Shown piece by piece: positions 14,279-56,540 of a stretch of 64,000 nt of DNA (positions are counted from its first letter, which is position 1; each line of letters begins with the position of its first letter). Location of the stretch: positions 666,418 through 730,417 of the forward strand of contig JAJEKV010000019.1 of NCBI GenBank assembly GCA_021234155.1. Direction: 5' to 3'. The notes under the pieces were generated by a model. It was given only the letters and a program-made list of their open reading frames with translations. It ran no database searches and had not been told where the DNA came from. The translations under genes and the position numbers were made by a program. Origin of the DNA: Isoetes taiwanensis. Its lineage: Eukaryota; Streptophyta; Lycopodiopsida; Isoetales; Isoetaceae.

Positions 14279-15405
14279 TCGGCTAGCCCAGCACCAGCGA
14301 AGTCTGCTCCAATGCTTCCAGATAAATATGGTGACTTCTCTGATGTTTTTGACAAAGTCAAGACCAGCAAACTCCCAGAGCATCGTCTATATTATTGTCC
14401 TATTGATTTGCAGCCGAGGACCATGCCACCATATGGTCCGATATATGGTCTATCTCCTGCTGAGTTGAAGGTTTTGCGGGATTATATTGAAGAGAATCTA
14501 GCCACTGGCTTCATTCGACATTCTCGGTCCCTGAGCTGCTATCTTCTTCGTCCAAAAAGAAGGATGATTCGCTATGGCGTCTGTCGCTTGATTATCGCGG
14601 CCTCAATAAAATCACAGTGCCATCGGTATCCGCTTCCTCTGATCCCAGAGTTGTTGGAACGACTCCAAGGTGCGCATTATTTTACGAAGATTGATCTTCG
14701 GGGTGCCTACAATCTTATTCGGATCCGGGAGGATGATGAGTGGAAAACAGCCTTTCGTGACTTTCTGGTGATGGCCATTTTGAGTACACGCTATGCCGCT
14801 TTGGACTTACCAATGCTCCTGGCAAAAGATTCCAAAGATATGGCCAATGATGTTTTTCGAGAGTTCTTAGACACTTTTGTTATCATCTATTTGGATGATA
14901 TCCTTATTTATTCTAAGACTCTCAAAGAACATGAGAGGCATGTTCGACGTCCTTCGGTTTTCAGAGCATGGGTTATATGCCAAACTTGAGAAGTGTCGGG
15001 GCGAAAGGGATAATGTGGAGTTCCTTGGCTATCGCATCACCCACATGGAGTCTCTATGGACCCTGAAAAGGTCAGCACTGTTCTGGAGTGGCAAACACCT
15101 TCATCCATTCGAGATGTTCAGTATTTTCTTGCGTTTCATTCGGGATTATTCGGAAATTGCCCTTCCTTTGATACGCCTCACGGTCAAGGACGTGCCATTT
15201 GAATGGACTGGCGAGCGACCGCTTTTGTTACCCCTCAAGCATGCTCACCACAAGCCAGCTTCTTGCTCATGCAGATCCTTTGCGCATATGTTTGTCGGCG
15301 GATGCTTCGATTTTATGCTTTGTGGGATCCTGTCATAGAAGGGGATGACCATGAATTGCATCCAATTTATCACTCACTTAAAATTTCAGGTCTGGAAATC
15401 AACTA
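14279..15405 (+). pseudogene. pol: Reverse transcriptase part of pol, element 1
   Basis: RNA-dependent DNA polymerase. The main open stretch (within 14015-14989) includes 'YCPIDLQPRTMPPYGPIYGLSPAEL', 'YPLPLIPELLERLQGA', 'FTKIDLRGAYNL' (first catalytic Asp) and the catalytic 'IYLDDILIYSK' (YLDD) near 14888-14921. A shift then moves the frame to 14877-15338 ('LYAKLEKC', 'VEFLGYRI', 'FIRDYSEIALPLIRLT'). Motif B ('FGLTNAP'-like) is damaged near 14790-14830, and the 'VKKKDGS' block near 14550 has been altered. The segment runs into the LINE insertion at 15405, where the RNase H domain is interrupted. Confidence 0.85.
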
Positions 15406-15415
15406 TCCCATTTAT
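15406..15415 (+). repeat. LINE target-site duplication, left copy
   Basis: TCCCATTTAT, repeated exactly at 19058-19067 on the far side of the LINE. The RNase H reading frame of element 1 resumes straight after the right copy (DKELL... at 19068), which confirms the insertion site. Confidence 0.85.
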
Positions 15416-18400
15416 TTATTTATTTTTTTTTATTTTTTTTTTTTTGCAAGACTAAGTTTATATTAATGTATGCATAAAATATTTACAATGGGAAGGGAAA
15501 GGGGCCCCCTTAGGGGCATGAGCAAAATGCTCTATTACTGAGCCATCCTTAGCTCTCTTACATGCTATTGTTCGAAAGTGGATCGCATCGCTTATGCTAT
15601 TGTTCAAATGTCGGCATCATTTCCCCATGAGACCTTGAAATAGAGGAGGAACCCTCAAATGTAACCAATCCTATCAAAGGATTTGTCATATGCTGAACCC
15701 ATTTTCCTTATATGGGATATGGCCATTAGTGCCACGGCTTGATTAAAAGAATTCTGAATTTTGGCTATTGAGATTCCTTGGCCTCCAAGAGCAACGGAGC
15801 ACCTATGCTTCCATATTGCCCATAAGGCAACACATATGAGAGAGTAGCCAACTGTGTCGAGCTGGAGCATACCAATTCCTGGCCATTGGAGTTGAGTTTG
15901 ATCAAGATGTAGAATTGGGGCAGCCCAATCCCAGAAGCCTCTGATCTTAGGACAGAAGAACATGTGGCTAACGGTTTCCATGCCACCGCATTGAAGGGGG
16001 CAGCTAGTACCTTGTGCAATCTTCCTCTGTAACAGCCAAGTCATGGTGGCCAGCCCATTTCGCCAACAAAGCCACATAAAGATCTGTATTTTCTTTGTGC
16101 AATAGGAAGACCAACATCGTTTGAGCTGCATAGCAAGGTCAAGATTTGAGAGACTGGAACGACTTGCCACACTAGGTAGCAGGTCATGTAGTAGGGCTTG
16201 ATAAACACCTCTGACCGAGTATAAAGGCTTATTGTCCAGAAGCCAAACCTCCTCCTCACCATTCGTACCTGAAAGAACATTCACTTCATGTATAATTTTC
16301 TTATAAACCAACTTGTCAGAATTTGTCCCTTGTATGGCTGTTTTTAGTCTGGTCCAGGACCACCATGCAGCTCGGTCTGGATCCCAGAGATGGTTCAGAG
16401 TTGTGAAGCCAGCTTCTTCCCATTTCTTACAGATTTTAGGATGCGTTAGTGCCAGAGGGAAGTCTACCTGAGGGCTTACCATCGGACTCCAAAAGATTGA
16501 CAATCTACCAGCTTCCCATGGAGCGTGAGCAGGTCTAAAGCAATCCTTAACCTCATGCCAGGCTTCTAGAATTTTGCGCATAACTGGAGAGGTGCCATTG
16601 CGTATTTTGAAGTCATTGAAATAGGCAGACTTACATGTCAAAGCTAATGATGGTTTGGACTTTGGGGTGGCTCTGCTGAGCCAGTGCCTGATAAAATCTG
16701 AGCCAAAGGATGCATCACCTTCAATTGCATTCCAGACTAGTTTCCCGATTAGAGCCTGTGAGTGCTTGAGTAGATCTTTTCCCCCTAGTCCACCAAAGGC
16801 TTTTGGTTTGCATACTTCTTCCCATGCAATCTTGGGTGCACTTTGCCAGACAAAACACCTTATAAATTGCTGCATCCTTTTGTACACGTACTTGGGAGCT
16901 AGCAGAATAGAGGACAAGTACACCAAGGAGCTACTGAGCACACTGTTAGCTACCGTGACTCTGCCTGCAATTGAGAGTCCCTTGCTTGACCATAGATTGA
17001 TTTTCTTCTTTAGCTTGTCTAGGATTCCAGTCCAAATCCCTTGCGGAAGAGCTCCCATTGCTAGGGGAAGGCCAAGTAGCTTAGTAACCTCGCCGTTCTT
17101 GACAATCTGATAACCGAGATTCATGACCTGTGGTGGAGGTTGTTCCTCATGTGGCCAGAGAATGGCACTTTTTTTTGGATTGAGATTAACACCTGTGACA
17201 GTACTGAAGGCCTTGATTTCCTGAAGGCAGTTTGCTAAGCTGCCATCGTCATATCTCAGGAAGAAAAATGTGTCGTCGGCAAACTGCTGGATACATAATT
17301 GTTTCGATGTTGGAGATGGCATCTTTATGCCGCTGATTTCACCTGCTTGCATCTTGTCTTTGACCATGAGTGTTAGGACATTGGTCAATAAGATAAAGAT
17401 GTAAGGTGCAAGGGGACACCCTTGCCTGACTCCCTTCCATAGATTAAAGAGCTGTGTAGGTGTTCCATTGACAAGTATGGATGCAATGGCTGATTTGTTA
17501 AGACCCATGGCTACCTCAATGAATTTACTAGAGAATCCGAGTTTGCTCATAATTCTTTCAACTGCATCCCATCTAACTGTATCGAAGGCTCGTTTGAAAT
17601 CAAGTTTCATCATTACACACTTCTGTTTGCTTTGTTCAGCCCAATGTAGACCCTCGCAGGTTGAGAGATAATTTAAAAGGATATTTCTTCCAGATAGGAA
17701 GGCTGATTGCTCAGGTTCGATGAGTCTGTTGAGGAGTGGCTTTAGTCTGATAGCCAAGAGCTTAGCAAAGAGCTTATATGTGGTATTGGTCAGGGCAATG
17801 GGGCGCCATTCTTCAATGCTTTCAGGTTTGTCCACCTTGGGAAGAAGCGTAATGAAACCAGTTGACAATGCAGGATGTAGACTGCCATATTGCCAAGCCC
17901 CTTGTAATACGTTTAAGAGATCAGCACCTAGTTCTGCCCAGAACTCTAAGAGAAACTCCGGGGGAAAACCATCTGGCCCCGGGGATTTGCCATGTGCCAT
18001 GGTTTTAAGTGTTGCAAGAATTTCATCTTTAGTGATCTGCCTGCATAGAAGATTATTGTCATCTGCACTGATGGGGGCATTGAGGACTTGGAAACATCGA
18101 TCCATGGCTTCTCTATAATCCATGGGGATTGGGTCTTCAGAGAAAAGTTTAGAGTATGCCTCCGTAAGATATTTTCTGATTCCTGATGGATCTCTTATGT
18201 AGTTATTGTTGGAGTCCTTGAGAGTATTGATACCATTCTCCATCACCCTAGAGCCTGCTAACCGAAAGAAAACCTTTGAATTCTGATTGTCCATGTCGTC
18301 ATGCCATTTGGCCTTGGAACGGATGGCTGCCCCCCTTGCCTCATTCTCCTCAATGGATTTAATTTTCCCATCGAGAACTGCCTCTTGGTTCTGCAATGTG

Positions 18401-19057
18401 ATATCATAAGGATTGCACATGAGTTTGGAGCGGACTGCTCTGATTTGGTCATACACTTCCATTTTGGCGCTTTGAAATCTGCATGCTCTTTCCCTGCCCC
18501 ACTGTTTTATCCATCCTTTCAAGCCCTTGAGCTTTGTAGACCATGCATGCATGCTTTTGCCACCAGGGTCAATCTTGGGAAGAGTTGCAAGGAAAGCTTT
18601 AAAGGGCGTAACAAATTCTGTTTTGTTCAAGTAGCTTGCATTAAACTTGAATGGTGTGGCTCCTCCATGTCTCATTTGCAACGATGTAGTCTCAAAAACT
18701 AGTTTTTGCGGTATATGATCAGACTGTGTGAATCCATATTCCCCTTCTAAAAAATGCCGATCAAGAAAAGGTGCAGTTCGACTTACCAGGTAGAAGCGGT
18801 CAAGCAAGGAGTAGACCCTCTTGTCCCCGGCCTGATTGTTGCACCATGAGAACTCTGATGTAGAGGGAGGAATTAGCGTGAATCCGATTGAATCCATGAG
18901 CTTTTCCCATGCTAACTTTTCTTCGACAAGGAGGTTCCTATGTGCTCCAATTTTATGGTCCCATGATTCAACCATGTTAAAGTCGCCACCCAAAAGCCAA
19001 TTAACAGTTTGCTGGTTTTTGATCCAAGCTTCGATCTGCAACCACATTTGGGCTCTT
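15416..19057 (-). mobile_element. 5'-truncated plant L1-type LINE nested in Ty3 element 1
   Basis: The minus-strand element of 3.64 kb ends in an A-rich tail, seen as a T-rich run at 15416-15446 on plus, and is flanked by a 10 bp duplication, TCCCATTTAT. Its 5' end lies inside the endonuclease domain, so the gag-like ORF1 and the start of ORF2 are missing, as expected for target-primed reverse transcription that stopped early. The remaining ORF has no stop over 1130 codons, while the host element is full of indels. The LINE is therefore probably a much younger insertion. Confidence 0.92.
15655..19047 (-). CDS. LINE ORF2 polyprotein (partial endonuclease, RT, zf-RVT)
   Basis: The ORF of 1130 residues is intact from its first internal Met but lacks the N-terminal part of ORF2. 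Residues 1-115 are the C-terminal part of the AP endonuclease, with 'GGDFNM' at 20-25 and 'SDHIP' at 109-113 (catalytic Asp-His). Reverse transcriptase spans about 330-700: 'SPGPDGFPPEF' from 355, 'LDFKRAFDTVRWD' from 482, 'GVRQGCPLAPYIF' from 539, and catalytic 'FADD' at 589-592. A zinc-binding zf-RVT-like region follows near 1000-1060 ('CPLQCGGMETVSHMFFCPK'). No RNase H domain was recognised. The first Met is simply internal; the frame stays open to the truncated end at 19057. It would normally nick target DNA and copy its own RNA in cis, but the missing endonuclease residues should make this copy immobile. Confidence 0.93.
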   Translation of the reverse strand: MWLQIEAWIKNQQTVNWLLGGDFNMVESWDHKIGAHRNLLVEEKLAWEKLMDSIGFTLIPPSTSEFSWCNNQAGDKRVYSLLDRFYLVSRTAPFLDRHFLEGEYGFTQSDHIPQKLVFETTSLQMRHGGATPFKFNASYLNKTEFVTPFKAFLATLPKIDPGGKSMHAWSTKLKGLKGWIKQWGRERACRFQSAKMEVYDQIRAVRSKLMCNPYDITLQNQEAVLDGKIKSIEENEARGAAIRSKAKWHDDMDNQNSKVFFRLAGSRVMENGINTLKDSNNNYIRDPSGIRKYLTEAYSKLFSEDPIPMDYREAMDRCFQVLNAPISADDNNLLCRQITKDEILATLKTMAHGKSPGPDGFPPEFLLEFWAELGADLLNVLQGAWQYGSLHPALSTGFITLLPKVDKPESIEEWRPIALTNTTYKLFAKLLAIRLKPLLNRLIEPEQSAFLSGRNILLNYLSTCEGLHWAEQSKQKCVMMKLDFKRAFDTVRWDAVERIMSKLGFSSKFIEVAMGLNKSAIASILVNGTPTQLFNLWKGVRQGCPLAPYIFILLTNVLTLMVKDKMQAGEISGIKMPSPTSKQLCIQQFADDTFFFLRYDDGSLANCLQEIKAFSTVTGVNLNPKKSAILWPHEEQPPPQVMNLGYQIVKNGEVTKLLGLPLAMGALPQGIWTGILDKLKKKINLWSSKGLSIAGRVTVANSVLSSSLVYLSSILLAPKYVYKRMQQFIRCFVWQSAPKIAWEEVCKPKAFGGLGGKDLLKHSQALIGKLVWNAIEGDASFGSDFIRHWLSRATPKSKPSLALTCKSAYFNDFKIRNGTSPVMRKILEAWHEVKDCFRPAHAPWEAGRLSIFWSPMVSPQVDFPLALTHPKICKKWEEAGFTTLNHLWDPDRAAWWSWTRLKTAIQGTNSDKLVYKKIIHEVNVLSGTNGEEEVWLLDNKPLYSVRGVYQALLHDLLPSVASRSSLSNLDLAMQLKRCWSSYCTKKIQIFMWLCWRNGLATMTWLLQRKIAQGTSCPLQCGGMETVSHMFFCPKIRGFWDWAAPILHLDQTQLQWPGIGMLQLDTVGYSLICVALWAIWKHRCSVALGGQGISIAKIQNSFNQAVALMAISHIRKMGSAYDKSFDRIGYI

Positions 19058-19067
19058 TCCCATTTAT

Positions 19068-20907
19068 GACAAGGAGTTGTTGGCGATAGTGGATTCTTTT
19101 GAGGAGTGGAGACGCTTCCTGGAGGGATCTCCTTATAAAGTCACAGTCTACACAGAAATCTAGAATATTTTCAGTCTGCTCGAGTGCTCAACCGTCGTCA
19201 GGCCCGGTGGCATACTCAAGTACTATTCCAGATTGATTTCGTGATCAAGTACCGTCCTGGATCCCTCCAAGGAAAGCCTGATGCCTTGTCTCGACGCTCC
19301 CACCTTGAGCCCAAACTAGGTGATCCTGCATTTGATCAGCAATCACAGGTTATTTTAGGGCCTATCGGTTCCAGCTTATGGCTCTCACTTTGTTCGAGAG
19401 GCATCATGATACAGCCTTGTTGCAGTCTGTTCGAGCATCTCTGCCCTCTGATCCATTGTCTCAAGATGTATTCTCACACATTGGCGCTGCATCATTTTCT
19501 CAGCAAATAGGATCAGACTATGATCGTTTTGAGGTTCGAGATGGACTCCTGCTCCGTGATGGGCTTCTATATGTGCTAGATGGTGCTTCTAGGCTTCGGG
19601 TTCTTCAGGCTTGCCATGATTCACCTATGGCCAGACACTTTGAAGTAGCCAAGACTCTTGAACTTATTAGTCGAGCGTATTGGTGGCCTGGGCTTTGTCA
19701 CTCTGTCGAAGCTTTTATTCGATCCTGTGACATCTGTTGTCGAGCGAAGGTTCAAGGCATCTTCCTCATGGCCTTCTTCAGCCATTGCCGGTACCAGATA
19801 GACCTTGGAAGAGCATTTCTATAGACTTTATTCCGGAGCTGCCACTCTCTCGGGGTTATGATGCCATCATGGTTGTTGTTGATCGTTTCTCTAAGATGGC
19901 TCATTTTATTCCCTGCAACATCATCATCACCAGTGAGGGAACAATGGCTCTTCTTCTTTGTGATGCCCGATACTATCGTCAACGATCGTGGACCGCAGTT
20001 CGTCGCAGGTTTTTGGAAGCGGCTTTTGGAGTTATTGCATATCGACCGCTCACTGACATCTGGTCATCATCCAGAAAGTAATGGGCAGGTAGAGCGCACT
20101 AATCAGACTCTGGAGCAATATTTAAGGTGCTTTATCAGTTATCAGCAGGATGATTGGGTCGATTATCTTCTATTAGCTGAGTTTTCCTATAATAACTCAG
20201 TACATGCCTCCACTGGCTAGACTCCATTCTTTCTGAACTTTGGTCAGCATCCTCGTTGGTCCCTTAGTGTCGCTGGCAGTGACTCTGTCAATCCTAGTGC
20301 CGAGTCTCGACTTGAGAAACTCCAGGATCTTCAATCAGATCTTCAGTATCATCTTCACCGAGCACAGGAACGTTATCGGCATTATGCTGATTTGCATCGC
20401 CAGGAAGCTCCTAAATTTCATGTTGGTGACCTTGTCTGGCTTCATCGTAGGGACCTTCCCACCTCACGTCCCTGCAACAAGCTTGACTATCGTCGCCTTG
20501 GTCCTTATCGGATCATGGCTCAAATCAGCAATGTGGCATTTCGGCTCGAGCTCCCTCCAGTTGTTCGGCTCCACCCAGTATTTCATGTTTCTCTATTGGA
20601 GCCCTACATAGTTAACACTTTCCCGGATCGCGTTTCTCCGCCGCAACCACCAGTAGAAATTGATGATCATGAGGAGTTTGAGGTTCGAGAGATTCTGGAC
20701 TCCAAGTTTCTTCGTCGACGATTGGTTTACTTTGTCGATTGGGAAGGTTACTCGCCAAGTGATAGAACCTGGGAGCCTGCCAAGAATCTAACTAATGCAC
20801 CTGACAAAATTGCGGAGTTTCACCGACGTTACCCAAACAAGCCATGTTTGAGTACTCCGACCCCAGCTCCGAGGACTCGTCGCTGTCGTAGGAGGGGGAT
20901 GGTGTGA
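19068..20907 (+). pseudogene. pol: RNase H, integrase and chromodomain part of pol, element 1
   Basis: The frame resumes after the LINE with 'DKELLAIVDSFEEWRR'. RNase H ends at about 19300 ('RRQARWH', '[20 protein letters not shown]'). The integrase has an HHCC zinc finger (19560-19760: 'HDSPMARH' ... 'CDICC'), a catalytic core with 'IDFIPELP' (Asp), 'VNDRGPQF' (Asp) and '[19 protein letters not shown]' (Glu), and then the GPY-like 'YRRLGPYRI'. The 20392-20907 ORF ends in a chromodomain ('YFVDWEGYSPSDRTWEPAKNL'), which in related elements binds methylated histone H3 and steers integration. Frameshifts near 19790 and 19980 and a TAG at 20218-20220 break it. The final TGA lies inside the first bases of the 3' LTR. 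Confidence 0.9.
20890..20902 (+). promoter_or_regulatory. Polypurine tract of element 1
   Basis: AGGAGGGGGATGG directly precedes the 3' LTR (TGTGACG). Position and composition fit the primer for plus-strand synthesis. Confidence 0.8.
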
Positions 20908-29380: not shown

Positions 29381-30539
29381 GACTAGTGGCTAAAAACGTT
29401 ACTAACTCCAAAATATGATATGGAAATAGGTCGAAAAAAAGTCAGCAGGAGATAAGTTGAGTAGCAAAAGCTCAAAGGGTTTTGGGGAAAAATGATCATA
29501 CCCATAAAATTGAGGAAATTAGGAGTTTTGTGACTGTCAATTCTTATGCATCATGTGAATCCACTCTTACATACGCAATTTTCTTAGTAGACAAAGTTAT
29601 TACTATGGAAGAAGATCCATTTTTTTGTAATGGAGATTTGGATATGCCATATAGGTGATTTCAATCCTAGTCAAAATTAACATCCAACAAACCACATTCA
29701 CATTCTTTCGTTTAGCTATACCATTCTACTGTGGAGAAAAAGGAATATTTTGTAAATATCTTAGTATTGACACAAAATGATTTGAAAGGGACCAATTTGT
29801 GCTTCTATTTTCTTCCAACTTATTTATACTTATCGTTTTCTTCCAACCTTTAAAGTTTTGGAACGTGTTTAATTTCTTCAGTCTTTAGGCTTTATAAATA
29901 GGTTCAGCCAGAATGAACAAAGTTTAAAATGAAACGCACTTATTTGCTGGAAACACACTTCAAAAGGAATCTTTGAAAGATTCCCTAAAATTCCCTTAAA
30001 AAAGTCCATTTTTAAGATTTTTTTGTGACAGGTGTGACAATTTAAGTAATTTAGGTACCATTTTTGAGGGGTTGATTGAACATAACTTTCGTGCAAAAAT
30101 TTTAAATAGCAATTTTCATCCTCCTAAACTAGAACAAAAAATAGTTACTTTTATAAAGTGTAGCAAAAAAGGGGCAATAAAAAAAATAGCAAGGGTAGTA
30201 GAGTGACAAAGAAGTGATATATTCAAGGTTGTGAAAATTGTACAAAATTATGAACAAAATTGTCAAAAATATAGGATATTTTGACGCATAAATCATCACC
30301 GCACTTTCTCGTTTTTTACATGTTCGAAATCATCTGGACAAACTTACATTTTGCAAAGAAGATCGATGCATCTCATCCTCGACTCATTTATTCCCCGATC
30401 ACTTCGAGCCTTCATCCTCGGCTTCACTCTCAAAGACTGGATGTACTCGAACGATCTTCTTCCTCACCGCCTACAAGTGAGTCTTCATCATCATCTTTTT
30501 GGCCACCTTTTTGGCTTGTTTGTCTAATCCACATGCCGA
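29381..30539. other. AT-rich intergenic, possible 3' part of the adjoining minus-strand gene
   Basis: 29381-30280 is AT-rich without a gene. From about 30540 down to 30380 the minus strand has a charged coding-like stretch that may be the acidic/basic C-terminus of the DUF7869-type gene, but frames are broken. Confidence 0.4.
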
Positions 30540-33439
30540 CCTTATTAAAGTTTGAGTGACCATACGTAACTTATTAGCGGCAATGTAACAAAGTCATATG
30601 CAAGAACCTTTACTTCATTAGATCTATGACGCCAGTTGCTTGCTTTGGACTTAGCTCTTTTCCCACTCCTGCTTTTACCATCTCCAAAGTATAACTCCCA
30701 ATCAAAGCATTGGCGCAATGTTCTCATCCAAAGTGCACTTTTAATTGAGTGGGAATTCCATCCTCTTTGTTACCTCCAAGACTTTTAGCTAGCCGTAATG
30801 GCCTCCCCAGATTCATCATTATCACCGGGACAGCTATGAGCATTCCTTTCTCAATCTCTCGAGATCGAACCGTGATACTCGAAAGCAACTTGTTGTGTCG
30901 TATGCCTAGGGCGGTGTACATGACTCTGTCATCTTCATCCGAAGCTAGCCAATATCTCTACATGTTCCTCTTGATTCTCAACTTGCACAGGGAGGGTTTG
31001 CCTAGATGGCCAGTTGAATGTAACTGGTCTTCGACCTTGTAATGAAGCTTGCAACATGTCACGCTGTCGAAAAAAAATTGAGGCCACCATAAAGCATCTC
31101 GCCTCCCCAAAGTGGTTAGAGCAGATCAATACTTGTCTCAATACAATCCAATGATTTATTTGAGTCAAATGCTCTTCCCTCCTTTTTACTCTTTGTGATT
31201 TCTTTCAAGCTTTTAGAGGCATTTGATCTGGCAGAGCATGGAACTAGTATTGGGGATGTTGCGAATGAATTGAATACCGCCACTGGGTCGCCAATCGCAA
31301 GGATGTGGCATATTTCTTTCTTGTAAGATGGCCTTGCCATCTACAAGTGAAATTTTGATCTGATGCTGAAATGTAATGTTTCTCAAGGGCTCAATAGCAC
31401 AGTGACCTAGTTGATCTCTCCGAAAAATCCATTCCTTGAAATCATAAGTTTCTTCCAATAACTCGATGTCTGGACGAGGATTGTAGGAATCTTGATGACC
31501 TCAATCATGGTGGCAGGCTTAGAGCTTTTTTCGAAAGCAAGACGCTTAGAGAACCTATCAACATCCGATCAATTTGGTCGTGTATGACCAACAAGCAGAA
31601 ACCAATCTTCACCTTCTTGAAGATTTGTTTCTCTACTAGCATAGCACGCAAGCAAACAACGCCGATTCTTATTTTCCCTTGTCGTGTTATCTAGTCAAGA
31701 TACGTAACCGGGCAGATATGTTCTAGATTGGAAAGAAGCTTATTCAATATTGTGATAGTGAGATTTGGATCAGCATGAATGTTTGATAATTCAAAAATGC
31801 CTTGCAAGATAGTTTTCCATTAAATACCATAGCACCAACAACATGCATGTATGAAATCTTCTTCAAAGAAGATCCTTAGGCACATTGACAAAATGTGGTA
31901 GGGTGGTCTTCTTCCGTCCATTCCATCAATAACAACCGATATGTAGTTGAGTGGTTGTTCCAAAGGCTTTCTTCCTATGTTTTGTCAATTTTCTCCTTTC
32001 CAAAGATTGTTGTTCTCTCTGGCTTTGTTCGGGCCCCTTCAATGCATCCGAAAGGAAAATATGTTTAGGAAAGAACCTACTTTTAAGTAGAACTAGGCAA
32101 GAACACGCCCCGAAGCTTACTTTTAGTGTGAAGTGTCCTTGCATTTTGTCTCTCGAGCTTTTAATTCGTGAGCATGTAGCACAAACAGACATCCTATGCT
32201 TTCTAGGAATGGCCACGCCGAAAAACTCTTTTTCCGTGAGCACAAAGAAAGTAAGAGTAGCGCATAAAAGCCGCTTCTCCAAAATCAACACACATCTCCT
32301 TATAATTATCGTGAGACTTCTTGTTTCGTGGAAATTGTCACCAAGTGGTACATAGGGCTGTTAGGGAGTTTCTCACAAGACTCCTTAAAGAAACCTTCCA
32401 TCCAGAAAACACATTGAAGGGCATGAATTCTGGTTATGCCTCCCGAATGGCAAGAGTCATTGATGCCCGGATTCTTGTCAAGCCTTTTCTTCAGCGGTCA
32501 AGACATCCTCCGCCTAAAGCATGAATCAATTTGAAGGCCGCTTGACGACGGTGGGCCACCAGCGTGTAAACTCACCATCATCCGCCTAATATTGAAGGCT
32601 AAGTAGCCCCTTTGGTCTAGCAGAGTCATTGAACTGAAACTATCACGAAGCAACCTCAATTCCTTTAGTCCAATCTTAAGCAAACAACGCTGAGAACAAC
32701 AAAGCTTTTTTGTATGTGTTGCCCGCAAGTGAGCCTCGGCCCATGAGTTTCTTTCTTCTAACGGTTGTACATGCTCTCTTGTGTAAGTTACGCTTTAAGA
32801 TTTTACTTGCGGGGCTTTGAATTCAACATGGACTCTTGTGGCTTTGGTAGGTCCTCGCCCGAGACATCAACATGAGGTGTTTCTTCGCCCCGAGATCAAC
32901 ATGAGGTGTACTTGTAGATGCCGAGAGGTTTGATGTGGGCAAGTCCTGGGGGAGGTGCTTTCCCTCTCTCTCGGGAAAAAGTAATCGAGGCCGGTGACGA
33001 GTTGACCAGCTCCCGAAGTGTCGAGAACACAGAGTTGCGTGTCGCCGACCGCCCCCACTTGTTGTAGTACCATTTAGCTTAAATGGATGGAGTTGGTGTG
33101 ATTTGCCTCCGGGGAGGGAGCCTTTACGGTGGACTATGGGCTTACGATTAAAAATGAAGTGGAGGAGGTAGTCCGACCTCTCTAGCCCGAGGTGGGGTAA
33201 AACGCATTGGTGGGGGGCGCACGACGCTCGTGAGCGTGGTGTGGTGGAGTAAATTGAACCGGTGGTGGAAGCCGAGGTGGTCTTGCCGGAGTAAACTCAA
33301 CAGAGCCGGGTGTTGGAATGTCGGATGTAGAATATTCGTGGGCTACTTCCGGTGTCCGCTGAGGAGGTGTGAAAGCCATTGCAGAGGAAGCCCGCGAATC
33401 AGAGTTGAGGCTCGCAGCTTCTTTTCTCTCGAAAGCCAT
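30540..33439 (-). pseudogene. DUF7869-type transposase-like gene, many frameshifts
   Basis: A protein family seen in fern and bryophyte genomes (annotated as DUF7869, from memory); its spaced acidic motifs suggest a DDE/D-like nuclease. Reading minus from ATG 33439: a Pro/Thr-rich N-terminus ('MAFERKEAASLNSDS', 33182-33439); 'LRLLRDSFSSM...GYLAFNIRRMM' (32570-32660); a Cys motif 'CATCSRIKSSRDKMQ' (within 31926-32291); then 'VVIDGMDGR' (about 31913-31938), 'TTRENKNR' (about 31660-31685), 'FLLVGHT' (about 31580-31601), 'FKEWIFRRDQLGHC' (about 31400-31440) and 'PHPCDWRPSGGIQFI' (about 31260-31305). The C-terminal region at 30724-31168 includes 'LQASLQGRRPVTFNWPSRQ'. Each block sits in a different frame, so this is either a pseudogene or a gene spoiled by assembly indels. 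The start codon lies 2 bp from the first palindrome of the shared upstream array. The function of the family is unproved. Confidence 0.6.
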
Positions 33440-33441
33440 AC

Positions 33442-33581
33442 GGTATAAATTTATACAGAGTTGGTATAAATTTATACAGGAAGAAAAAAACTTATATGGC
33501 GGATCAGATAAATTTATACAGAGATGGTATAAATTTATACGAGGAGGGCAACATAGAACGTAAACGGTATAAATTTATACT
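33442..33581. repeat. Palindrome cluster 1 (5 copies), next to the minus-strand start codon
   Basis: Copies of GGTATAAATTTATAC(C) start at about 33442, 33463, 33505, 33526 and 33566. Steps are 21, 42, 21 and 40 bp, close to two and four helical turns. The first copy is 2 bp upstream of the ATG of the minus-strand gene, so this cluster lies in its promoter or 5' leader. Right half-sites end in 'ACAG' or 'ACGA', less perfect than in cluster 2. Confidence 0.9.
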
Positions 33582-33852
33582 AAAACTCACGCATTAATTT
33601 GTATTGAAAACTTTATGGAGAAGCTTATATGAAGCGACACTTAGCAGAGGTACTTAAGCCCGGCGCCCGCCACCCTATTTTCTATATAATGCAGCCGGAG
33701 TCGGTCATGCCAGGCGGCGCTTATATATACCCCCTTATTTGCTCTCCTCGAACGCCTATACGCCGGTCTATACCGCCATGGCCACGTGCAGTCTACTACC
33801 CGCATCGTTCTAGTTTCTTTTTGTTTTAATCGCTAGAGTGTAAAAATACCAC
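33582..33852. other. Spacer between palindrome clusters
   Basis: Divergent intergenic DNA without the palindrome. It holds 'ctatataat' near 33683 and 'tatatata' near 33723, either of which could serve as a TATA element. No gene is supported. Confidence 0.35.
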
Positions 33853-34273
33853 GGTATAAATTTATACCGATATGGTTCTCGATCGGTATAAATTTATACC
33901 GCCGGTTAACGAAGCGGTATAAATTTATACCGCCTTCCAATCACGCGGTATAAATTTATACCGATATGAGTTTCGATCGGTATAAATTTATACCGCCGAA
34001 ATTTTGCACGAAGCGGTATAAATTTATACCGCCTCGCAACACGCGGTATAAATTTATACCGCAAGTGTTCTGATCGGTATAAATTTATACCGCCGAAAGC
34101 ACGAAAAAGATAAATTTATACCGCCGAGCACCCGCGTATAAATTTATACCGACCGGTTCTCGAACTCCACGGTATAAATTTATACCGCCGAAAGCACCGC
34201 GTATAAATTTATATCGATCGTGAATCGGTATAAATTTATACCGCCAGGCTCGAAAGCAGTATAAATTTATACC
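33853..34273. repeat. Palindrome cluster 2 (14 copies at about 31 bp steps)
   Basis: The core CGGTATAAATTTATACCG is a perfect 18 bp palindrome. Start positions of the 16 bp core are about 33853, 33885, 33916, 33947, 33979, 34015, 34045, 34076, 34107, 34135, 34171, 34200, 34227 and 34258. Steps range from 27 to 36 bp and average 31.2 bp, about three turns of B-DNA. Spacers are GC-richer and partly repeated ('ccgatatg.gttt/ctcgatcgg'). The array lies between two divergent genes. Symmetry and phasing suggest binding sites for a dimeric protein, which is an inference. Confidence 0.95.
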
Positions 34274-34862
34274 GATCCGTAACCATTTTGGAATCTTGGT
34301 GTCTAGTGCTTAAAGAAGTGTCGCAAACCTTAATATTTTAGTAATATTCTTTGCGCTTTTAAGCTTAAATAACACAAATAAAGTGATAATTTAGTGTAGA
34401 TTTTATGCTCTTTTCGCCTATTTTTTTACCGCTTTTATGTTACAAAAGGTCGAAAAGGTTCTGCTTTTTTGCATAAAATGGCCTTCTTTACGCTTTTTCC
34501 AGCCCCAAGATCAGGTTTGTACACAAGGGCCACCATCAAAGGTCGCACCAATAGAGCCACGCATATACGAACCGAAGACCAGACGCGGTACGCCCACAGG
34601 GGGTGCAAGAGAGAGCAAACCCACCGAGGCGCACCTTTACTTGTGTCATCAATCGTGGAAGGGCAAGTACAAGATCGACGATTATTACCCCGCCGGGCGA
34701 AATTGTCAACCTTATTGCTACAGACGCCGATGATGAAATTTTAATGAAGTGCATGCATGACAAGGGGAAGTCTTCACGTTCTTGAAAGTAAAATGCTTCA
34801 ATAAGCATGTGCAAACCCAAAGATGTGCATGAGTACGTATCGACAATTACAAGAGTGGCCAT

Positions 34863-34932
34863 GTAAGTATTGTTTAGTGTCTTTACGTATAAATTTATAC
34901 CGTCATCCTCCTAACTTAACCCTGCATTACAG
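34863..34932 (+). other. Short intron with one palindrome
   Basis: Donor GTAAGTATT and acceptor CATTACAG bound 70 nt. The single palindrome copy ('cgtataaatttataccg', core start about 34886) fills a quarter of it. Confidence 0.65.
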
Positions 34933-35893
34933 GATATAGTGGACATTTTGATGTCAGTTGTGCTTTGCGAAGAAACAAAGTTGGTCAAAGGTCTGTGGTA
35001 CCCCACTCCTATCGAAGAGCTTGAAGAGAAGGACGAGGAAGTAGAAGAAGAAGAGGAAGAGGAACCAAAGGGTAACAAAGGGAAAGGGTAGGAAGCATTC
35101 CCCGGTAGTAGATACAAAAAGCTCCTACAAAAAAGAAATCTAGAGGCACAAAGTCTTTGACTATAGAGGAGTCAACAGAAGCTCTTCAGAAGGCTCCTGG
35201 AGCAGATATTGTTGTGAAGCCCGCAGATAAATCAAGTGGTATTCTCAAGCGGGTGAATGACACTAAACTGCTAAAGCAAACTATTTCTTTGACATTGAGC
35301 ACCATTAAGAGGCCACCTAAAAATGAAGATGGGGTCGAAAGTGCTACAGTCCCCTAAGTCAGATGCGCGCACATGTGGCTATACCGAAACAAAGAATGAG
35401 AAGGAATCCTCATGCCCATGTGTCGCCACTAGTTGTTATGGTGGGATGAGAGTCGCGCAACCAACTAAAAGATTACAAGAAGGTCGACTTCAAGATTACA
35501 CATACTACGCTTCTTGGAGGCACACATAGTTACAAGGCAAGGAAAGAACTAGCAAAAGAGGAAAGCCGAACGGCGTGGAAGAGCTGCTGAAGCACATATA
35601 TACGCTTGGTGTAACGATGAAGAAGCAAAAGTCATTGCCGCGGAGTCATAATCTCGACAATGACTTCAGATTAAAATGAGTTTAATAGACAAGATCCGCT
35701 TTCATGCAATCGTGAGTACGCGGAATTTAAACAAATGCATGGAGAGGATTTTAAAAAGCAAAAGAACAAGCCGCAGGAGCTTCGAGAAGCCTGTGTGACA
35801 GAGTGCTGCCTCAGCTATGACTCTGATAAGAAGCCCATTATGGCAGTAAAGCAATACGATAACTACTTTCAGCTGGCATTCAGAGATGGTCAA

Positions 35894-36300
35894 GTAAGTA
35901 AATGCTCTTCTTTCTATGTTTTGTAGTATGTTTAGCGTGGTTACAGTGCCTTGGCACGGTATAAATTTATACCGCGGGCCAAGATAAATTTATATCATGA
36001 TAGTCACGGTATAAATTTATACCGCGTAGGACGGCACGGATAAATTTATACCGCGGACTAGTCATACCGCGGACGGTATAAATTTATATCGTAGTTTATA
36101 CCACGCAGATAAATTTATACCGCCCCTAGTCACTGCAGATAAATTTATACCGCAGTCAGCCTTTATACCGTCGCGTATAAATTTATACCGCGGTCCGTGG
36201 ATCGGTATAAATTTATACCGCGACTACACACCATGCGCGTATTTAGAAAGTAGACCGCAACAACATATTCTCTTACGCTTAAGCAACACTAAACTAATGG
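35894..36300 (+). other. Intron with palindrome cluster 3 (9 copies)
   Basis: The donor is CAA|GTAAGTAAATG at 35894; the acceptor is not certain (about 36245-36320). Core starts are about 35958, 35981, 36008, 36037, 36075, 36106, 36136, 36174 and 36204, with steps of 23-38 bp. Several half-sites are degenerate or shortened ('cagataaatttataccg'), and a lone half-site 'tttatacc' occurs between copies, as if copies are gained and lost. Confidence 0.75.
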
Positions 36301-37252
36301 CGCTTTGTCCATTTACGTGTGGGATCTTCAAGAAAGAATTTTTGTATGTTCAAGATGGTGAGCTTAAAGAGCAAGCCAGCCCGCAGGGAAAACCAAAAAG
36401 GGTGGAGAATTAAAAACAAAAAAAATATGAGCATTGTACCGGACGCAGCTATGTGGATTAAAAAGCAAAGAAATTTTTGTTCGCCTTTTGAAAAAGTCGC
36501 GGGCCAAGGAATTTACATTAGACTTAAATGGCCAAGGAAGCTAAGACGTAAGCCACATTTGCAATGCCGTGGTTTCTTCTACATTTTCTCGGTCTTACAA
36601 CATGTTTCTCTTTGCAAATGAAAGACATTGTACACCGCCAGCCGAAGTTAATGAAGCAAAATAAACCTAGAGGACTCGAGGAGTGCAAGCTTCTCTACCC
36701 AAGTTGTACCAATCGATAGTATCATTAGAGAGCACGCCGTTAACTTTAGTGGTCGGGTAAGTTTTGCTAAAAATATGTTCTCGTGTTTTGTGCCTTTTTC
36801 TCACAATATTCTTACTGTAACAAGAAAAAAGGGCTCCCCGCCGGATTTTTAAACCCGGTTCAGAGGGCCAAGGAAGAGAGGCGTAGACTTAAGGCAATCG
36901 AACAGTGGAAAGGAGGTCGCCACTAGCGCCTTTGACACTTCTTATGAAAGATTTACAACGCTTTGGTCGACCGCATGTACAGAGTTGTTGAGGGTGACCG
37001 CACGAGGTCGGGGACACTTTTGGAGAAGCGTAACTTTACATTATGCATTGCGATATTCCCTATGGTTTCAAAATTAAGGACAACGCTTTTGACGAGGAGG
37101 CTTTCACGCACGCAAGTCCACTTTTTGGAGGCCCGGCGAAGTCACCTTATCCGCTAACCGAGGGTCATCATTTTCCATTCGACCTACAAACAATGTCGGT
37201 GCTTAAACCTATGGGAGCCGCCTCAGAATGCCGCTTTGAAAACTCGCTTTTG

Positions 37253-37500
37253 GTAAGCTTAACATTTAACGCTTTTCTTTTTAGTAACTCCACGGTATAA
37301 ATTTATACCACAAACCGCCTAAGGTTTAAATTTATATAGCAAGGCAATGTCTCAGATAAATTTATACGGCTTAGAAAGGCTCGTGGTATAAATTTATACC
37401 GCAAGGCAACCCCGGTATAAATTTATACCGCCACACTAATCGAGCTAACTTATTTTCCTTGTTTTTATTTTACTAATATTTCATTGTTGTGCCGCTTAAG
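37253..37500 (+). other. Intron with palindrome cluster 4 (5 copies)
   Basis: Donor GTAAGCTT at 37253, a branch-site-like TACTAAT at 37471-37477 and acceptor CGCTTAAG at 37493-37500. Palindrome cores start at about 37293, 37323, 37353, 37385 and 37414 (steps 29-32 bp). The intron splits the catalytic DIPY exon from the exon holding the AdoMet motif. Confidence 0.8.
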
Positions 37501-38160
37501 GTGCTTAAAACAAACGCTAAGGGTCATGGTGGTGGTCCGCTTAGTAAGTTGTTTCGAGCATTTTCACATAGGGTTTTACAAATACAGACGCCAAAAAAAA
37601 CCATGGTTCACTTTAATACGCCAGAATGAGAAGACTCCTCCCCGCAATGCGCTTCAGCCCCTACGGTTTTGCAAAAATTAAGAGACCCATTAAATGGCTG
37701 CCTGTGGTGTCCCATTATCGTAAGCCACAAATGACTTATTAATAATTTGATACGCTGGTTTTCTCGCCGGGACCGGATCTTAGACGCATTTTCCGCTCAG
37801 CACCCAAAGCTTTAGCCATTTTCTGCTGGGCGCAATGTTGTCTCCACGACATAGACCCGACAAAATAAGTTTCATCGTGACCGTGATAAGCTCTTGTGAA
37901 TCCTTTCCCCGATGAAAACGAGGAATTGGGAGCAAAAATGGTGCCGGGCGATGTAAAAGGCACATATACGTAAATCCAGCCTCCACTTACTGGAAGAAGA
38001 GATGAGGAGGTGGAGTTCGTCGATCCGAGCCCGTGGTGCCCGAGCCGAGAAACAAACTGCACTGCACCATTGAATCGGGAAGGGGCGCTCGCTATTATAA
38101 CCTCGCAAGAGACCGATCCTAAGGGGAGAGAGAGTCCCGTGGACCGAAGAGCCACCTCCC

Positions 38161-38176
38161 GTGATAAATTTATACG
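38161..38176. repeat. Single outlying palindrome copy
   Basis: 'gtgataaatttatacgc' near the 3' end of the plus-strand gene; the last copy found and the right-hand limit of the family here. Confidence 0.6.
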
Positions 38177-38204
38177 CATGATTTTAAACTATCTTCCATT
38201 GTAA

Positions 38205-38448
38205 TCTATGTGCTAAGAATTTCAATATATTTTGATGAAGATTTCTCAACTCAAAACTTTGTCTCTTCAACAATGCTTAATTAGAACAATTCTTTTTGAT
38301 TCATGATTTTAACTCTTTCTCTTTCTATGTTTGATTTTCTTAGTACTTATATTAAGCTTGCAAAAACACAAAACTATATTTCCTTCTATTTTCAACAACA
38401 AATACTTAATGAGTTTTTAAATGTAATGTCTCTCTCCTCAAAACAAGC
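38205..38448. other. AT-rich sequence downstream of the methyltransferase-like gene
   Basis: No coding family. It probably holds the 3' untranslated region of the plus-strand gene. Confidence 0.35.
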
Positions 38449-40113
38449 TTTTTTTTTTTTTGCCCTTCTTAAAAAATGAAAATGCTTCAAAAATGTTGCT
38501 TTTTTTGGGGTATTTCGAATGCTATTTGCTCAACAATCTATTTTGCTCCCTATTTTGTCCATTCTTTTTTAAACCTTGTTAATGTTGTCTACCTCAATGT
38601 TGTCATACTACCCTTGGCCACGCCTTTTGTTGCTCCTACAATCGTGATCGAAATGTTGCCCCCTTTGTTGATACTACAACTTCGGGGGAGTCTACATTCA
38701 TCACCCTCAAATAGAGATTGTACTTGCGTATGGTTTCCCGAACTGCATTTAACTTTCCCCGGGTAGGAAGGAAGGAAGGAAGGAAGGTTCTTTTATCGCC
38801 CACGCGAGACCAATCGGCCTATGGGACCCAATAAAAAAACGCAGCAAGTGAATTCATCGCCGGATTAAAAACCCCGCCCCAAAGGGTTTTCGAGGGAAAA
38901 CTGCGGGTAAAGAATCACCTCACCGACAAACTGTCCTAACATATAAAATGCGTAAACACCCAAATATATACAAATATGCACCACATCCAGAGTGCCTAAT
39001 CACCGGGCGTGCGCGGGGGGCAAAGGTGACCTCGCAGTCCAAGATTCATGAATGTACGCGACCCGTGGCACGATCGACGGTGTGTTCATCGAAGAAATGC
39101 AAGGGCAAGTCCGCCGCATTTCAAAGGAGCCGATCCGCCCTGGACCGATCAACGCCGGGCAACTCGGAAAGTGTGAGACTCATCCTCAATGGTACCCGCT
39201 TGACAAAGACCGACAGAGCTCGCCCCGGGCGGGGCTCCCCAATCCACCGCCTCGCCTCGATGCGAAGATGGTGGGCACCCGCGGCGAATGGAGGCAATGA
39301 GTCCGCGGCTTTTTCGTGGGCAGCCGGGAACGCAGGTAGAGCCGCATGGCCCCGGGCTAACACGGGTTGATGTGCTCCTTGTAATGGGCCATTTTGACGT
39401 GCTTCTAGAGCGCCGGGGTCCCGTGAGCTTGCCAAGAAACAAGCGCCTAGGTACTCCCGCAGTCGCCACGACGACGGCCGTGCCTACCGCGACGCATCTC
39501 GTGTTCCCCGCACATTCCATTTGGCGAACCATCTCTCTTTACCCTCCAACAAAGCCCTAAGCCGCAAGGACCCATGGCCACAAGTGTAAGCCAAAAGGGG
39601 AGCCGAGCATCACCCATAGTAACCACTTTCAAAATAGACGATGTGTCTATCAAGGGCTGCCCGGAAGTGGCAAGAATCCGGTTTCGCCGCAGAATCCGAT
39701 AGGGGACCGAAGGTTTCACCCCAAGTGCCCGTGCCAAAATGCCTTACGCACCTGCCCAAGTCATTCCAGTCGCCAAAGAAACGACCGCCCCAAACCTCGA
39801 CCCGCATGAAGGACAGCTCGACCCAGCCCTAATGATGTGACCGATGGCCCCAATCATAGAGCTCACCGGGTGACCATTGTTCTCGCATGGCATAAAGCGC
39901 TTCCACCACACACACCCGCAAGCGGATAGACGCCTCCCAGCAGAGCGAGGAGGGGAACTCCACCCCTAGGTACTTGTAGGTGGGCGTGACGTCCACAGGC
40001 TGTCCCCGATATGTGAGTGCATCCCTAGGTACTTGTAGGGGGAGAGATTGAACTCCATCGTTGGCAATATGAATTTCATCTTCCTTATAAAAACTTGGGA
40101 ACATGTTGGACAT
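38449..40113 (-). mobile_element. Decayed LINE remnant (RT C-terminal part)
   Basis: Minus-strand ORF 40113-39829 has 'VTPTYKYLGVEFPSSLCWEASIRLRVCVVEALYAMREQ', the stretch that follows the RT domain in a LINE family of non-seed plants. It continues in other frames with 'VEVWGG' (near 39790), 'RALGVKPSVPY' (near 39700), 'DTSSILKVVTMGDARLPF' (near 39620) and 'AHHLRIEARRWIGEPR' (near 39230). The local DNA is much GC-richer than its surroundings. A T-run at 38452-38461 could be the A-tail of the minus-strand element, giving the left limit, but this is uncertain. Catalytic RT motifs lie upstream of the 5' break and are absent. A (GGAA)n microsatellite sits at 38765-38786. Confidence 0.7.
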
Positions 40114-41656: not shown

Positions 41657-42655
41657 GTGTGGGAACTGGTGTTGGAAGAAGGGGGGAATTGGAAGAATTT
41701 ATCTCCGGACTTGGCTTATCGGCTGGTGCATGACTGCACCCATCAGAAAGACTTGGATTCATGTAAGCTCCTTCACTCTTTGATGATTCAAAACTGTCGT
41801 GATTCTGCTCCCTTCTTAGCCAACCATCTCATTCGTCTTTTAATGGATTGAAGCGAATAATACATTAAACATGCTTTCAAATCCAGATCGTTATTCATGG
41901 AATGCAATTATTTATGCTCATGCCAAGCCCAAAGATGGTGAGAGTTGTTTTTATAGTTGTATCATGAAATGCAAATTGCAGGCATTTCCACAGACAAATT
42001 CACGTTTTTGGCTCCCTTGAGAGCTTGCAACAGCTTGCCTAGCATGTCGTTCATGGGCAAATATATATGGCACTTATCTCCAATCTGACCTTGTTGTGGA
42101 GAATTCTTTGATTAATATGTATGCCAATGTGGGAACTCAGAAGAAGCAGAGAGGGCGGTCAACATTTCTAAAAGCCCCAATGCGATATCATGGAATGCAA
42201 TAATTGCAGGATTTGCTCAGCATGATCAAGACCACCTTGCACTGAGTTGTTTTACACATCATGGAATGCAATAATTGATAATTGCAGGATTTTCTCGGCA
42301 TGATCAAGGCCACCTTGCACTAAGTTGTTTTACATATGCAGCTTAATGGATCCATGAGCAGTCTGAATGGAGATGATATTTCCTATACCCCTGAGGTCAA
42401 TATGGAAAATACACTTATTGATGTATATGCTGAATGGGGTAGCTTAAAGAAGGCAATCGGGGTCTTTAATAATTTGCAAAATAAAAAGGATGTAGTGTCT
42501 TGGGGAATAATGGTATCCGGATAGTGGCACTGAAATGTCTTGAGGGGATGCATAAAGAAGGAAAGAGCCCAATAATGTTACATTCATTATGACCTTGAAA
42601 GCATGTAACACAGGTGGATTACAGAAGGGCAAGTGCATTTATGAACAGGTTAGTG
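41657..42655 (+). pseudogene. PPR (PLS-type) protein pseudogene
   Basis: Pentatricopeptide-repeat proteins bind organellar RNA for editing, splicing or stability. Recognisable pieces in changing frames are 'LVHDCTHQKDLDSCKLLHSLMIQN' and 'FLANHLIRL' (41730-41850), 'RYSWNAIIYAHAK' (41890-41930), 'SDLVVENSLINMYANVG' (42080-42135), 'ISWNAIIAGFAQHD' (42190-42230), 'VNMENTLIDVYAEWGSLKKA' (42396-42456) and 'KKDVVSWGIMVSG' (42485-42524). The 'SWNAII' and 'NSLINMY' wording is typical of plant PLS-class repeats. At least four frame changes and stops occur, and a 60-70 bp stretch ('catcatggaatgcaataattg', 'gcatgatcaag.ccaccttgcact') is tandemly repeated at 42196-42265 and 42255-42325. No E/DYW domain is seen. 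It is probably a dead copy. Confidence 0.8.
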
Positions 42656-54429: not shown

Positions 54430-54597
54430 GTGCAATTTTTTTGTATTAGTGTAATATAAAATATAAATATAATACTCTCTTGCACTATAAATGTTTTGTT
54501 GATATATTTTGTGTCCCCCAACCATACCAACAAACATAAATAATGCAAGAAAGCAAGGAAAACTAACCATGCAGATATGAACCACTTGTGTATGCAG
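54430..54597 (+). other. Intron-like AT-rich segment between gag and protease
   Basis: A sharp drop in GC over about 170 bp, with a donor-like GAG|GTGCAA at about 54430 and an acceptor-like TGTGTATGCAG ending at 54597, where the protease frame opens. It could be a spliceosomal intron used to regulate Gag:Pol, as reported for Ogre elements in another position, or a small insertion. Confidence 0.4.
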
Positions 54598-56025
54598 CTA
54601 GAGGCCTGAGCGCAGGAGAACGACAACTGCGGGAACTTACAGAGCAAGCAGAGAGCCAGTATAAAGTAATTTCCACAGTGGGAAAGGCCAAGGCCAAGTC
54701 ATTTATAGTCCTGATAGATTCGGGAAGTAGCCATAACTTTGCATCTCCCAGAATGGTTCAAATGTTGAAGTTGAAACCATTAAAGTCAAAGCCAAGGCCC
54801 GTTGTCTTAGCAAGTGGAGCAGTAAGGCAGACGGCAGGTAAAAGAATCAACTTTGACATCGACTTGCCGGGGATTAAGATCCAGATGGGGGCAGAGGTAA
54901 TGGGCATCGGCAAATACGACTTGATAATAGGTATGGAGTACCTTGGACCAGCAGGGGCCATTATTGATTGTGGAAAGCGGAAGGTGACCTTCCCAACACC
55001 CGACGGCAAGATCATTGAGATAACAGGTAAAGAAGTTGTTCCCATCATGCAGTGCATGTCTTCTAAACGGCTGTTCAAGTGCATCAAGAGTGAGCGGGTA
55101 GCATACATCTTCAAGCTTGAGATTAGCGAGCCGGAATTGGAAGGAAGCAAAGAAGACAAGATGCTCAGCAAGCTACCGAAGCAAATAGCTAAGTTGATCA
55201 CGGAGTTCCACGATCTCTTTCCAGATGAGATCAAGCAGCTCCCTCCTTATAGGGGAGTCGAAAAGCAGATAGCACTCGAACCGGGAACAAAGCCTACAAG
55301 CAAGGCTCCATATAGAATGACAACGCAGGAGTTGTCGGAGCTGAAGAAGCAGTTGCAGGAGCTGCTCGACCTAGGTTTCATTAGACCTAGTGTCTCGCCG
55401 TTTGGAGCGCCCATTCTTTTTGTCAAGAAGAAGGATGGATCCTTGAGGATGTGCATAGACTATAGACAGTTGAATAAGCACACCATTAAGAACAAGTATG
55501 CGCTTCCAAGATCGTAGACGACTTGATGGATCGCTTCAAGGAGCAAAGATCTTCTCCAAAATCGACTTAAGGTCGGGGTTATCATCGATACGGATAAAGG
55601 AGGAAGATATCCACAAGACCGCCAGACGCGGTATGGGCATTATGAGTTCACAGTGATGCCTTTTCGCTTATCAAATGCCCCCGCAACGCTCATGAGGCTC
55701 ATGAACGATATCTTCGTGGAGTTCCCGACACCTTTGTGATTGTTTTCTTTGATGACATTTTGGTGTATAGCAGATCCCTTGAAGAGCACGCGGCAACACT
55801 TAAGAAGGGTGCTAGAGAAGTGGAAGAGGCACCAGGTTTGTACGCCAAGTTGTCGGCGCCACTTCGCAAAATGAGAAGGTGGAATACCTTGGTCATGTGA
55901 TCTCGGCAGAAGGCATCTCGACGGACCCCGCCAAGATTGAGGCAAAGTGATTCAAAGGGTCGGCTACCAAGAATGTGCATGAGGTCAAGTTTTCTCGGCT
56001 AGCAGGGTACTACAGAAGTTCGTGA
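54598..56025 (+). pseudogene. pol: Protease and reverse transcriptase, element 2
   Basis: The open stretch to 55517 holds an aspartic protease ('[14 protein letters not shown]', catalytic D-S-G at 54717-54725) and the first half of RT ('[17 protein letters not shown]', '[50 protein letters not shown]'). A missing base at about 55512 creates a TAG; RT goes on in other frames with 'FSKIDLRSG', '[14 protein letters not shown]' and catalytic 'VFFDDILVYSR' (55741-55773). Tyr/Phe-x-Asp-Asp is conserved. The GTG/ORF opening upstream is not a real start; the protein is probably joined to gag by splicing or frameshift. Confidence 0.88.
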
Positions 56026-56130
56026 AGAACTTTGTTAAGATAGCAGCCCCAAGTAACGCACCTCGACGAGGGGCGCAGAAGGTGAAAGATTGCAGAGCAT
56101 TGGCACAAGAAAGCCCAAAAGGGGTTTGAA

Positions 56131-56540
56131 TTGTTGAAAGAAGCTCGACGACAGCCCTGCCTTGACCTTGCCGGACCCGAGAAAGATAAGCTTGTAGCAA
56201 CAGATGCGAAAAAAATAGCTACAAAAATTGCTTGCGTTGTATTTATGCAAGAAGAGCGTGGTGGTAGCCGCATTTATTCCGTAAAGATGAACGACGCCGA
56301 GACGCCGCTACCCAACGCACGCATCGGAATTGCTTGCGTTGTCGTGGCATTAAGAATATGGAGGCACTATCTCTTGGGAACGGTTCCAATTGATACCCAC
56401 CATCGAGAGCTCCAATATGTATTCACGCAACCACACCTTAATCCGAGGCAGCGGAGATGGATGGAGTTCCTCAAGAATATGACTTTGATATAGTCTACAA
56501 GCCGGGAAGCTCAATGTGGTAGCAGATGCGCTTTCAAGGC
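56131..56540 (+). pseudogene. pol: RNase H, element 2
   Basis: Removes RNA from the RNA-DNA hybrid. Recognisable 'LVATDA' (catalytic Asp), 'CVVFMQE', 'ALRIWRHYLLG' and 'LNPRQRRWMEFL', ending in 'NVVADALS' in another frame. Several small deletions disrupt it. Confidence 0.8.

Follow-up and report, generated by a model that had tools for sequence, protein, structure and literature searches.

In Arabidopsis, the transposon VANDAL21 has arrays of short motifs in its introns and upstream regions, and its own protein VANC21 is described as binding them; the targets of VANC6 carry other motifs (PMC5735166). VANC proteins are reported to induce the loss of silent marks (PMC5735166; PMC10398659). Here we describe a comparable arrangement in Isoetes taiwanensis. 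In a stretch of 64,000 nucleotides (contig JAJEKV010000019.1, forward-strand positions 666,418 to 730,417; hereafter the window), copies of a palindrome sit within an 8,665-bp DNA transposon (29916-38580) that is bounded by terminal inverted repeats, is flanked by the 4-bp target duplication AATG and carries a divergent gene pair, one gene encoding a DUF7869 protein and the other a putative DNA methyltransferase. We propose, with a probability of roughly 0.55, that the palindromes form operator arrays private to their transposon family, read by the transposon's own protein, likeliest the methyltransferase, with anti-silencing as the outcome. As in the VANDAL/VANC system, dense arrays of short motifs occupy introns and upstream regions and the motif differs by family, here between two families. 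VANDALs are summarized as MuDR-type elements (PMC12730594), whereas this element has DUF7869, a methyltransferase and 4-bp duplications; the Mutator-type transposase and 7-12 bp target duplications outlined in PMC10741241 were not found here. Furthermore, VANC21 motifs lie in one orientation, in contrast to the palindromes with helical phasing found here.

The Sola superfamily, reported in a moss, likewise combines 4-bp target duplications with inverted repeats (PMC10741241), and Sola2 duplications are noted as AT-rich (PMC3627910); the likeness lies in the duplications and inverted repeats, and the portions of text available on Sola mention neither a methyltransferase nor palindrome arrays. 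Viral Mariner elements are reported to be DNA transposons encoding a DNA methyltransferase (PMC3627910), but they have a Tc/mariner transposase, an endonuclease gene and other methyltransferase domains, and the available part of that source mentions no arrays. Fungal transposons with TET/JBP dioxygenases also have a DNA-modifying enzyme aboard, proposed to counter silencing (PMC12730594); the enzyme is a different one, and the summary text is silent on palindrome arrays. In phages and prophages, fusions of a ParB fold with an N6_N4 methyltransferase are described in which PF01555 is joined to a ParB-fold domain (PMC12704722), and a Bacillus cereus ParB-adenine methylase is cited in PMC5512222. 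Unlike these, the present case is a plant DNA transposon, and its ParB-like part is weakly recognisable. Sites of the parS type are palindromes read by a ParB dimer, and their sequence is unrelated to the palindromes here. They too are 16-bp sites (PMC8494293), but the Isoetes element has tens of copies in phased arrays, and the nucleotide motif is not conserved. Among the titles and abstract beginnings listed, none described this element type, and the literature searched gave no mention of DUF7869.

A search of the window with the palindrome of this family (family A; GGTATAAATTTATACC, up to 2 mismatches) returned 27 matches, all within 33442-37429, compared with 0.02 expected from shuffled sequence. 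Searching for the core TAAATTTA in its context gave 35 copies at the locus, four clusters holding 5, 14, 9 and 5 of them and two standing alone, the same count that had been made in an earlier note on this DNA. Outside the locus the core occurs only as four bare 8-mers (569, 11727, 21694 and 43171). Allowing up to 5 edits added no copy at the locus and found 15 places outside it, all with exactly 5 edits among the 12 matches listed, so that the claim of no full copy elsewhere holds for the window. Five palindromes lie 5' of the DUF7869 gene and 14 lie 5' of the methyltransferase gene, and three introns of the latter, plus-strand gene hold 1, 9 and 5, in agreement with the placement given earlier (the shared upstream region and three introns). 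One further copy (38165), close to where the plus-strand gene ends, may be coding or non-coding. Free half-sites are few, for example 36096 and 36163 in cluster 3. Intron limits were set by frame-shift-tolerant protein alignments and reading by eye. The window's highest CpG ratios, 1.12-1.41, occur in four of the five kilobases of 33001-38000.

We located the element ends by comparing ten 9.9-kb genome stretches with each other and with the window; similarity among the copies stops at common points, which are the ends. Inverted-repeat searches restricted to the window did not reveal them. The inverted-repeat ends begin AACAA(A/G)GTTTAAAATGAAACGCACTTATTT, and inverted repeats together with a short target duplication are present in the window copy and in three of the four other two-ended copies, the duplications being AAAT (L005), ATAG (L012) and TTGA (L009). 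Just inside the methyltransferase-side terminal repeat, L005, L008, L012 and L014 contain a self-pairing sequence, AAACGCACTTATTTAAGAAGTGCGTTT (end hairpin), which is absent from their DUF7869-side end.

The palindrome is spread through the genome and travels with the element. Genome-wide, 17,872 palindromes were counted with up to 2 mismatches allowed, compared with 1,038 for a reversed-pattern control, so the single-locus restriction supposed earlier does not stand. The element-end pattern (up to 2 mismatches) occurs 2,087 times (1,034 forward and 1,053 reverse; control 0), half of which gives an estimate of about a thousand element copies. Among the matches listed, many opposite-end neighbours are ~8.4-8.9 kb or ~2.2 kb apart, and others 3.5 to 14 kb. 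Ten loci were picked by palindrome, being every cluster place among the exact matches listed, from low-numbered contigs only, and all ten carry element sequence; eight hold an element end in the fetched stretch, and L006 and L011 are recognised by their similarity to other copies. L013 has both genes in divergent order with similarly arranged arrays, L006 the methyltransferase gene with arrays, and L010 the DUF7869 gene with arrays. Gene-less forms keep both ends and an array (L005, L012 and L014, 2.2 kb; L009, 3.4 kb), and inside the element these four gave no match to the seven relatives compared. DUF7869 fragments lie beyond the element end in L008 and L014. Among eight loci picked by their ends, six of them ends of loci already in the palindrome-picked sample, palindromes occur within 1.5 kb inside the end in seven and outside it in none. 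In the remaining one, L053, which is the end of the L010 copy on the DUF7869 side, the gene takes up the whole stretch. Together the ten palindrome loci and seven of eight ends bear out the idea, put forward in the earlier note, that the palindromes belong to a two-gene unit and move with it; both proteins also fit the kinds named there (DUF7869-type and methyltransferase-like), and no result points to the independently mobile palindrome that it had offered as an option.

A sister family (family B) keeps the gene pair and has a wholly different palindrome. Searching the genome with the DUF7869 protein P0046 (78 of 10,889 first-look candidates scored) gave at least 82 matches, 23 of them without inner stops, and four stop-free copies (L045-L048) were examined together with the 3 kb upstream of them. 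In all four the methyltransferase gene lies upstream in divergent orientation, and in none of the four 3-kb stretches does the family-A palindrome occur at up to 3 mismatches. Instead, they contain an unrelated palindrome, AAAGTGTATTCCGGAATACACTTT or similar, in 10, 13, 14 and 5 copies (up to 4 mismatches in 20), some of them in the intergenic region and others separating or flanking methyltransferase coding blocks; L046 and L047 each have one in a predicted intron. Gene pairs without the palindrome had been named beforehand as a refuting case. Such copies did turn up, but with another palindrome at corresponding places, and therefore, in our view, the link between palindrome and gene pair is strengthened. 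The N-terminal part of the methyltransferase aligns without stops in L046 and L047 (1 and 2 apparent frameshifts), and the ParB-like segment of L047 shares 83% identity with that of L046 and 50-52% with those of L013 and L006. The DUF7869-side end of family B reads AACAAGATTGCGTATTAAACGGGAGC or similar in 21 of 30 copies (boundaries by eye), including L017, which is the same copy as L045, and is different or not resolved in the other three fetched copies; AACAA at the end is common to both families. In L006, three family-B-type palindromes (9223-9340) lie ~2 kb from the family-A arrays, perhaps in a neighbouring or nested sister element.

Spacing within the arrays follows the helical repeat in both families. 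In family A (nine loci, 102 spacings of up to 60 bp) distances gather at 20-21, 28-32, 40-42 and 50-53 bp, corresponding to 2 to 5 turns, and 67% deviate by no more than 1.5 bp from a multiple of 10.5 bp, compared with ~29% by chance. Likewise, 93% of family-B spacings (four loci, 27 spacings) fall within these limits, at 20 and 41-42 bp, or 2 and 4 turns. None of 20,000 jittered sets reached the observed phasing, the loci being related copies so that the figures overstate independence. A row of dimers, all bound to one side of the helix, would produce such a pattern.

The window's minus-strand gene, in a hand-made read-through, matches PF25273 (DUF7869) with an expectation value (E) of 5.9e-31, and 279 of 518 aligned residues are identical to P0046, which comes from a 3.5-kb contig, across 30 apparent frameshifts and 2 stops. 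Acidic residues invariant in three relatives include D39, D42, D119, D158 and D161, and the protein is presumably the element's transposase. The plus-strand gene has four database matches, all from Adiantum ferns; a profile search over the best 7,999 candidates retrieved 45 proteins, of which 43 are from Adiantum, one has no name, and one (P0036) bears the source label Gb_10123, which we take to mean Ginkgo. Judged by the protein matches alone, the host would probably be placed among the ferns or their relatives. PF01555 scored above cut-off in six of nine relatives scanned (P0005, P0006, P0012, P0022, P0035 and P0036; best E 7.8e-19) and was not matched by P0017, P0028 or P0030. Among P0001-P0004 it was matched by P0003 alone, below cut-off, and no Pfam family was matched by pieces of the window's own broken gene. 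Similarity to phage DNA methyltransferase families is seen in P0036 (E 8.8e-21), P0005 (1.6e-15) and P0022 (5.9e-14). The public Adiantum gene models P0012, P0028, P0030 and P0035 fuse methyltransferase pieces to aspartyl-protease, gag or integrase parts.

The window copy itself is most likely dead, judging from its sequence, with its palindromes drifting like the remainder. The window gene differs from L013 at 10.1% of sites with 17 gaps and from L010 at 9.5% with 29 gaps, all gaps being 1-3 bases; by difference, ~6% of substitutions fall on the window's own branch. The many frameshifts (30 with 1-2 stops in the DUF7869 gene, 32-38 with 1-3 stops in the plus-strand gene) suggested sequencing error. 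A decayed copy is the simpler reading because the compared stretches of L013 and L010, read straight through, also contain stops (2 and 11) and because of those branch substitutions. We dropped the idea that palindromes were preserved while genes decayed, as the two drift about equally. Since the window copy is most likely dead, the sameness of its palindromes speaks of its active ancestors and of the family.

We envisage that an element protein binds the palindromes as a dimer, on one helix face, across 5' regions and introns. That the two families have different palindromes suggests that each uses private docking sites to mark the DNA belonging to it. The methyltransferase protein is the candidate reader because it would combine a DNA-directed activity with an N-terminal part resembling the ParB/sulfiredoxin fold; such fusions are reported as enriched in phages, and ParB and sulfiredoxin as having a fold in common (PMC12704722). 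Bound to the arrays, the enzyme could mark the element DNA with N6-methyladenine (6mA) or N4-methylcytosine (4mC), or shield it by excluding host silencing, and so might keep both element genes expressed; it might also act in trans on gene-less derivatives that retained arrays. If so, transposons would have evolved private DNA addresses for recognising themselves a second time and separately, here in plants distant from Arabidopsis and with an N6/N4-type enzyme that could leave a base mark open to direct reading. One could then test whether plants contain targeted 6mA or 4mC deposited by a mobile element, and how motif and reader change jointly from family to family.

Several observations weigh against operator arrays read by the methyltransferase. 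The N-terminal part has no Pfam match, fits TIGR03764 (ParB) weakly (E 0.025), and matches sulfiredoxins (E 0.56-1.9) behind two unrelated chains (E 0.22-0.25). The nucleotide motif of ParB is GERR; its presumed place reads GGTHS, GGNHS or GGCHS, GERR being absent, and nucleotide use by this part is therefore doubtful. A predicted structure of the methyltransferase protein was uninformative (predicted local distance difference test, pLDDT, 44), and a further prediction, bearing on a Sola-type DDD transposase, was unusable (pLDDT 33). No family-A gene copy among those examined is intact, the window's 35 palindromes have 40 mismatches in 560 sites against the consensus with ~6% on the window branch, about equal to the drift of the genes, and L014 has no matching target duplication at its ends. 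The sister copies are close relatives of one query, so that two palindromes are known. CpG in array spacers exceeds that of the rest of the locus in six of nine family-A loci (window 1.45) with no clear protection footprint; it is not raised in L006, L007 and L010 and is raised in one of the four family-B stretches. CpG protection of the arrays, promising in the window, proved mixed across the 13 loci and was set aside.

The DUF7869 protein would be the main alternative reader. It is possible, though we think it unlikely, that the arrays are sites for this presumed transposase, serving transposition or the shutting down of its own promoter, much as subterminal repeats of CACTA elements are bound by accessory proteins. 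Gene-less derivatives retain arrays along with ends, as expected of sites required for movement, and the acidic residues of DUF7869 are invariant among three relatives. However, the arrays lie ~0.4 to 5 kb from the ends rather than subterminally, they also occupy introns, and the DUF7869-side 1.5 kb of L053 is free of palindromes. Host transcription-factor sites driving the element genes would explain why two clusters flank the shared promoter region, but the same gene pair has unrelated palindromes at corresponding places in the two families, and arrays also lie within introns and gene-less derivatives, which makes this improbable. Passive tandem repeats that chanced to expand inside the element are very improbable: tandem expansion probably contributed, some spacers being in common, and in the dead window copy palindromes and genes have drifted at similar rates, but the palindrome is constant while spacers mostly differ, spacing is helically phased, and several array places have one motif per family.

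A bolder form of the favoured reading, which we regard as quite unlikely, is that a phage-style ParB-methyltransferase was domesticated by the transposon. In that case parS-like arrays would load a spreading enzyme whose 6mA or 4mC self-mark blocks silencing, and each family, with its own array and reader, would be epigenetically insulated from the other.

Features of the transposon in the window (positions counted from the first nucleotide of the window).
Feature	Position	Strand	Basis
Target-site duplication AATG, left copy	29912..29915		read from sequence
Terminal inverted repeat, DUF7869-side end (AACAAAGTTTAAAATGAAACGCACTTATTT)	29916..29945	+	copy-to-copy similarity stops here
DUF7869 gene (PF25273), presumed transposase, frames broken	30320..33439	-	PF25273 match; P0046 aligned 32018 to 30320; start codon near 33439 by eye
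Palindrome cluster 1, 5 copies, 5' side of DUF7869 gene	33442..33582		core search in context
Palindrome cluster 2, 14 copies, ~31-bp spacing, 5' side of methyltransferase gene	33853..34276		core search in context
Gene for an N6/N4-type DNA methyltransferase part preceded by a putative ParB/sulfiredoxin-like N-terminal part, frames broken, ends approximate	34395..38180	+	homologues, frame-shift alignment
Intron with one palindrome (34886-34901)	34864..34932	+	frame-shift alignment; splice sites by eye
Intron with palindrome cluster 3, 9 copies (35958-36220)	35894..36316	+	boundaries approximate, acceptor site apparently damaged
Intron with palindrome cluster 4, 5 copies (37294-37430)	37253..37500	+	frame-shift-tolerant protein alignment
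Single palindrome near methyltransferase gene 3' end	38160..38177		core search
Terminal inverted repeat, methyltransferase-side end, degenerate, ends AAACCTTGTT	38551..38580	-	read against other copies
Target-site duplication AATG, right copy	38581..38584		read from sequence

Elsewhere in the window, an open frame of 1,161 amino acids on the minus strand (15655-19140), by its looks a reverse transcriptase of the long interspersed nuclear element (LINE) type, lies within a broken Ty3/gypsy-like chromodomain element (~12455-20907; RVT_1, SH3_Tf2-1 and Chromo). Another retroelement stretch, at 54567-57433, matches an aspartyl protease (RVP_2), and two 60-bp direct copies of 92% identity, 78 bp apart, are found at 42200-42337.

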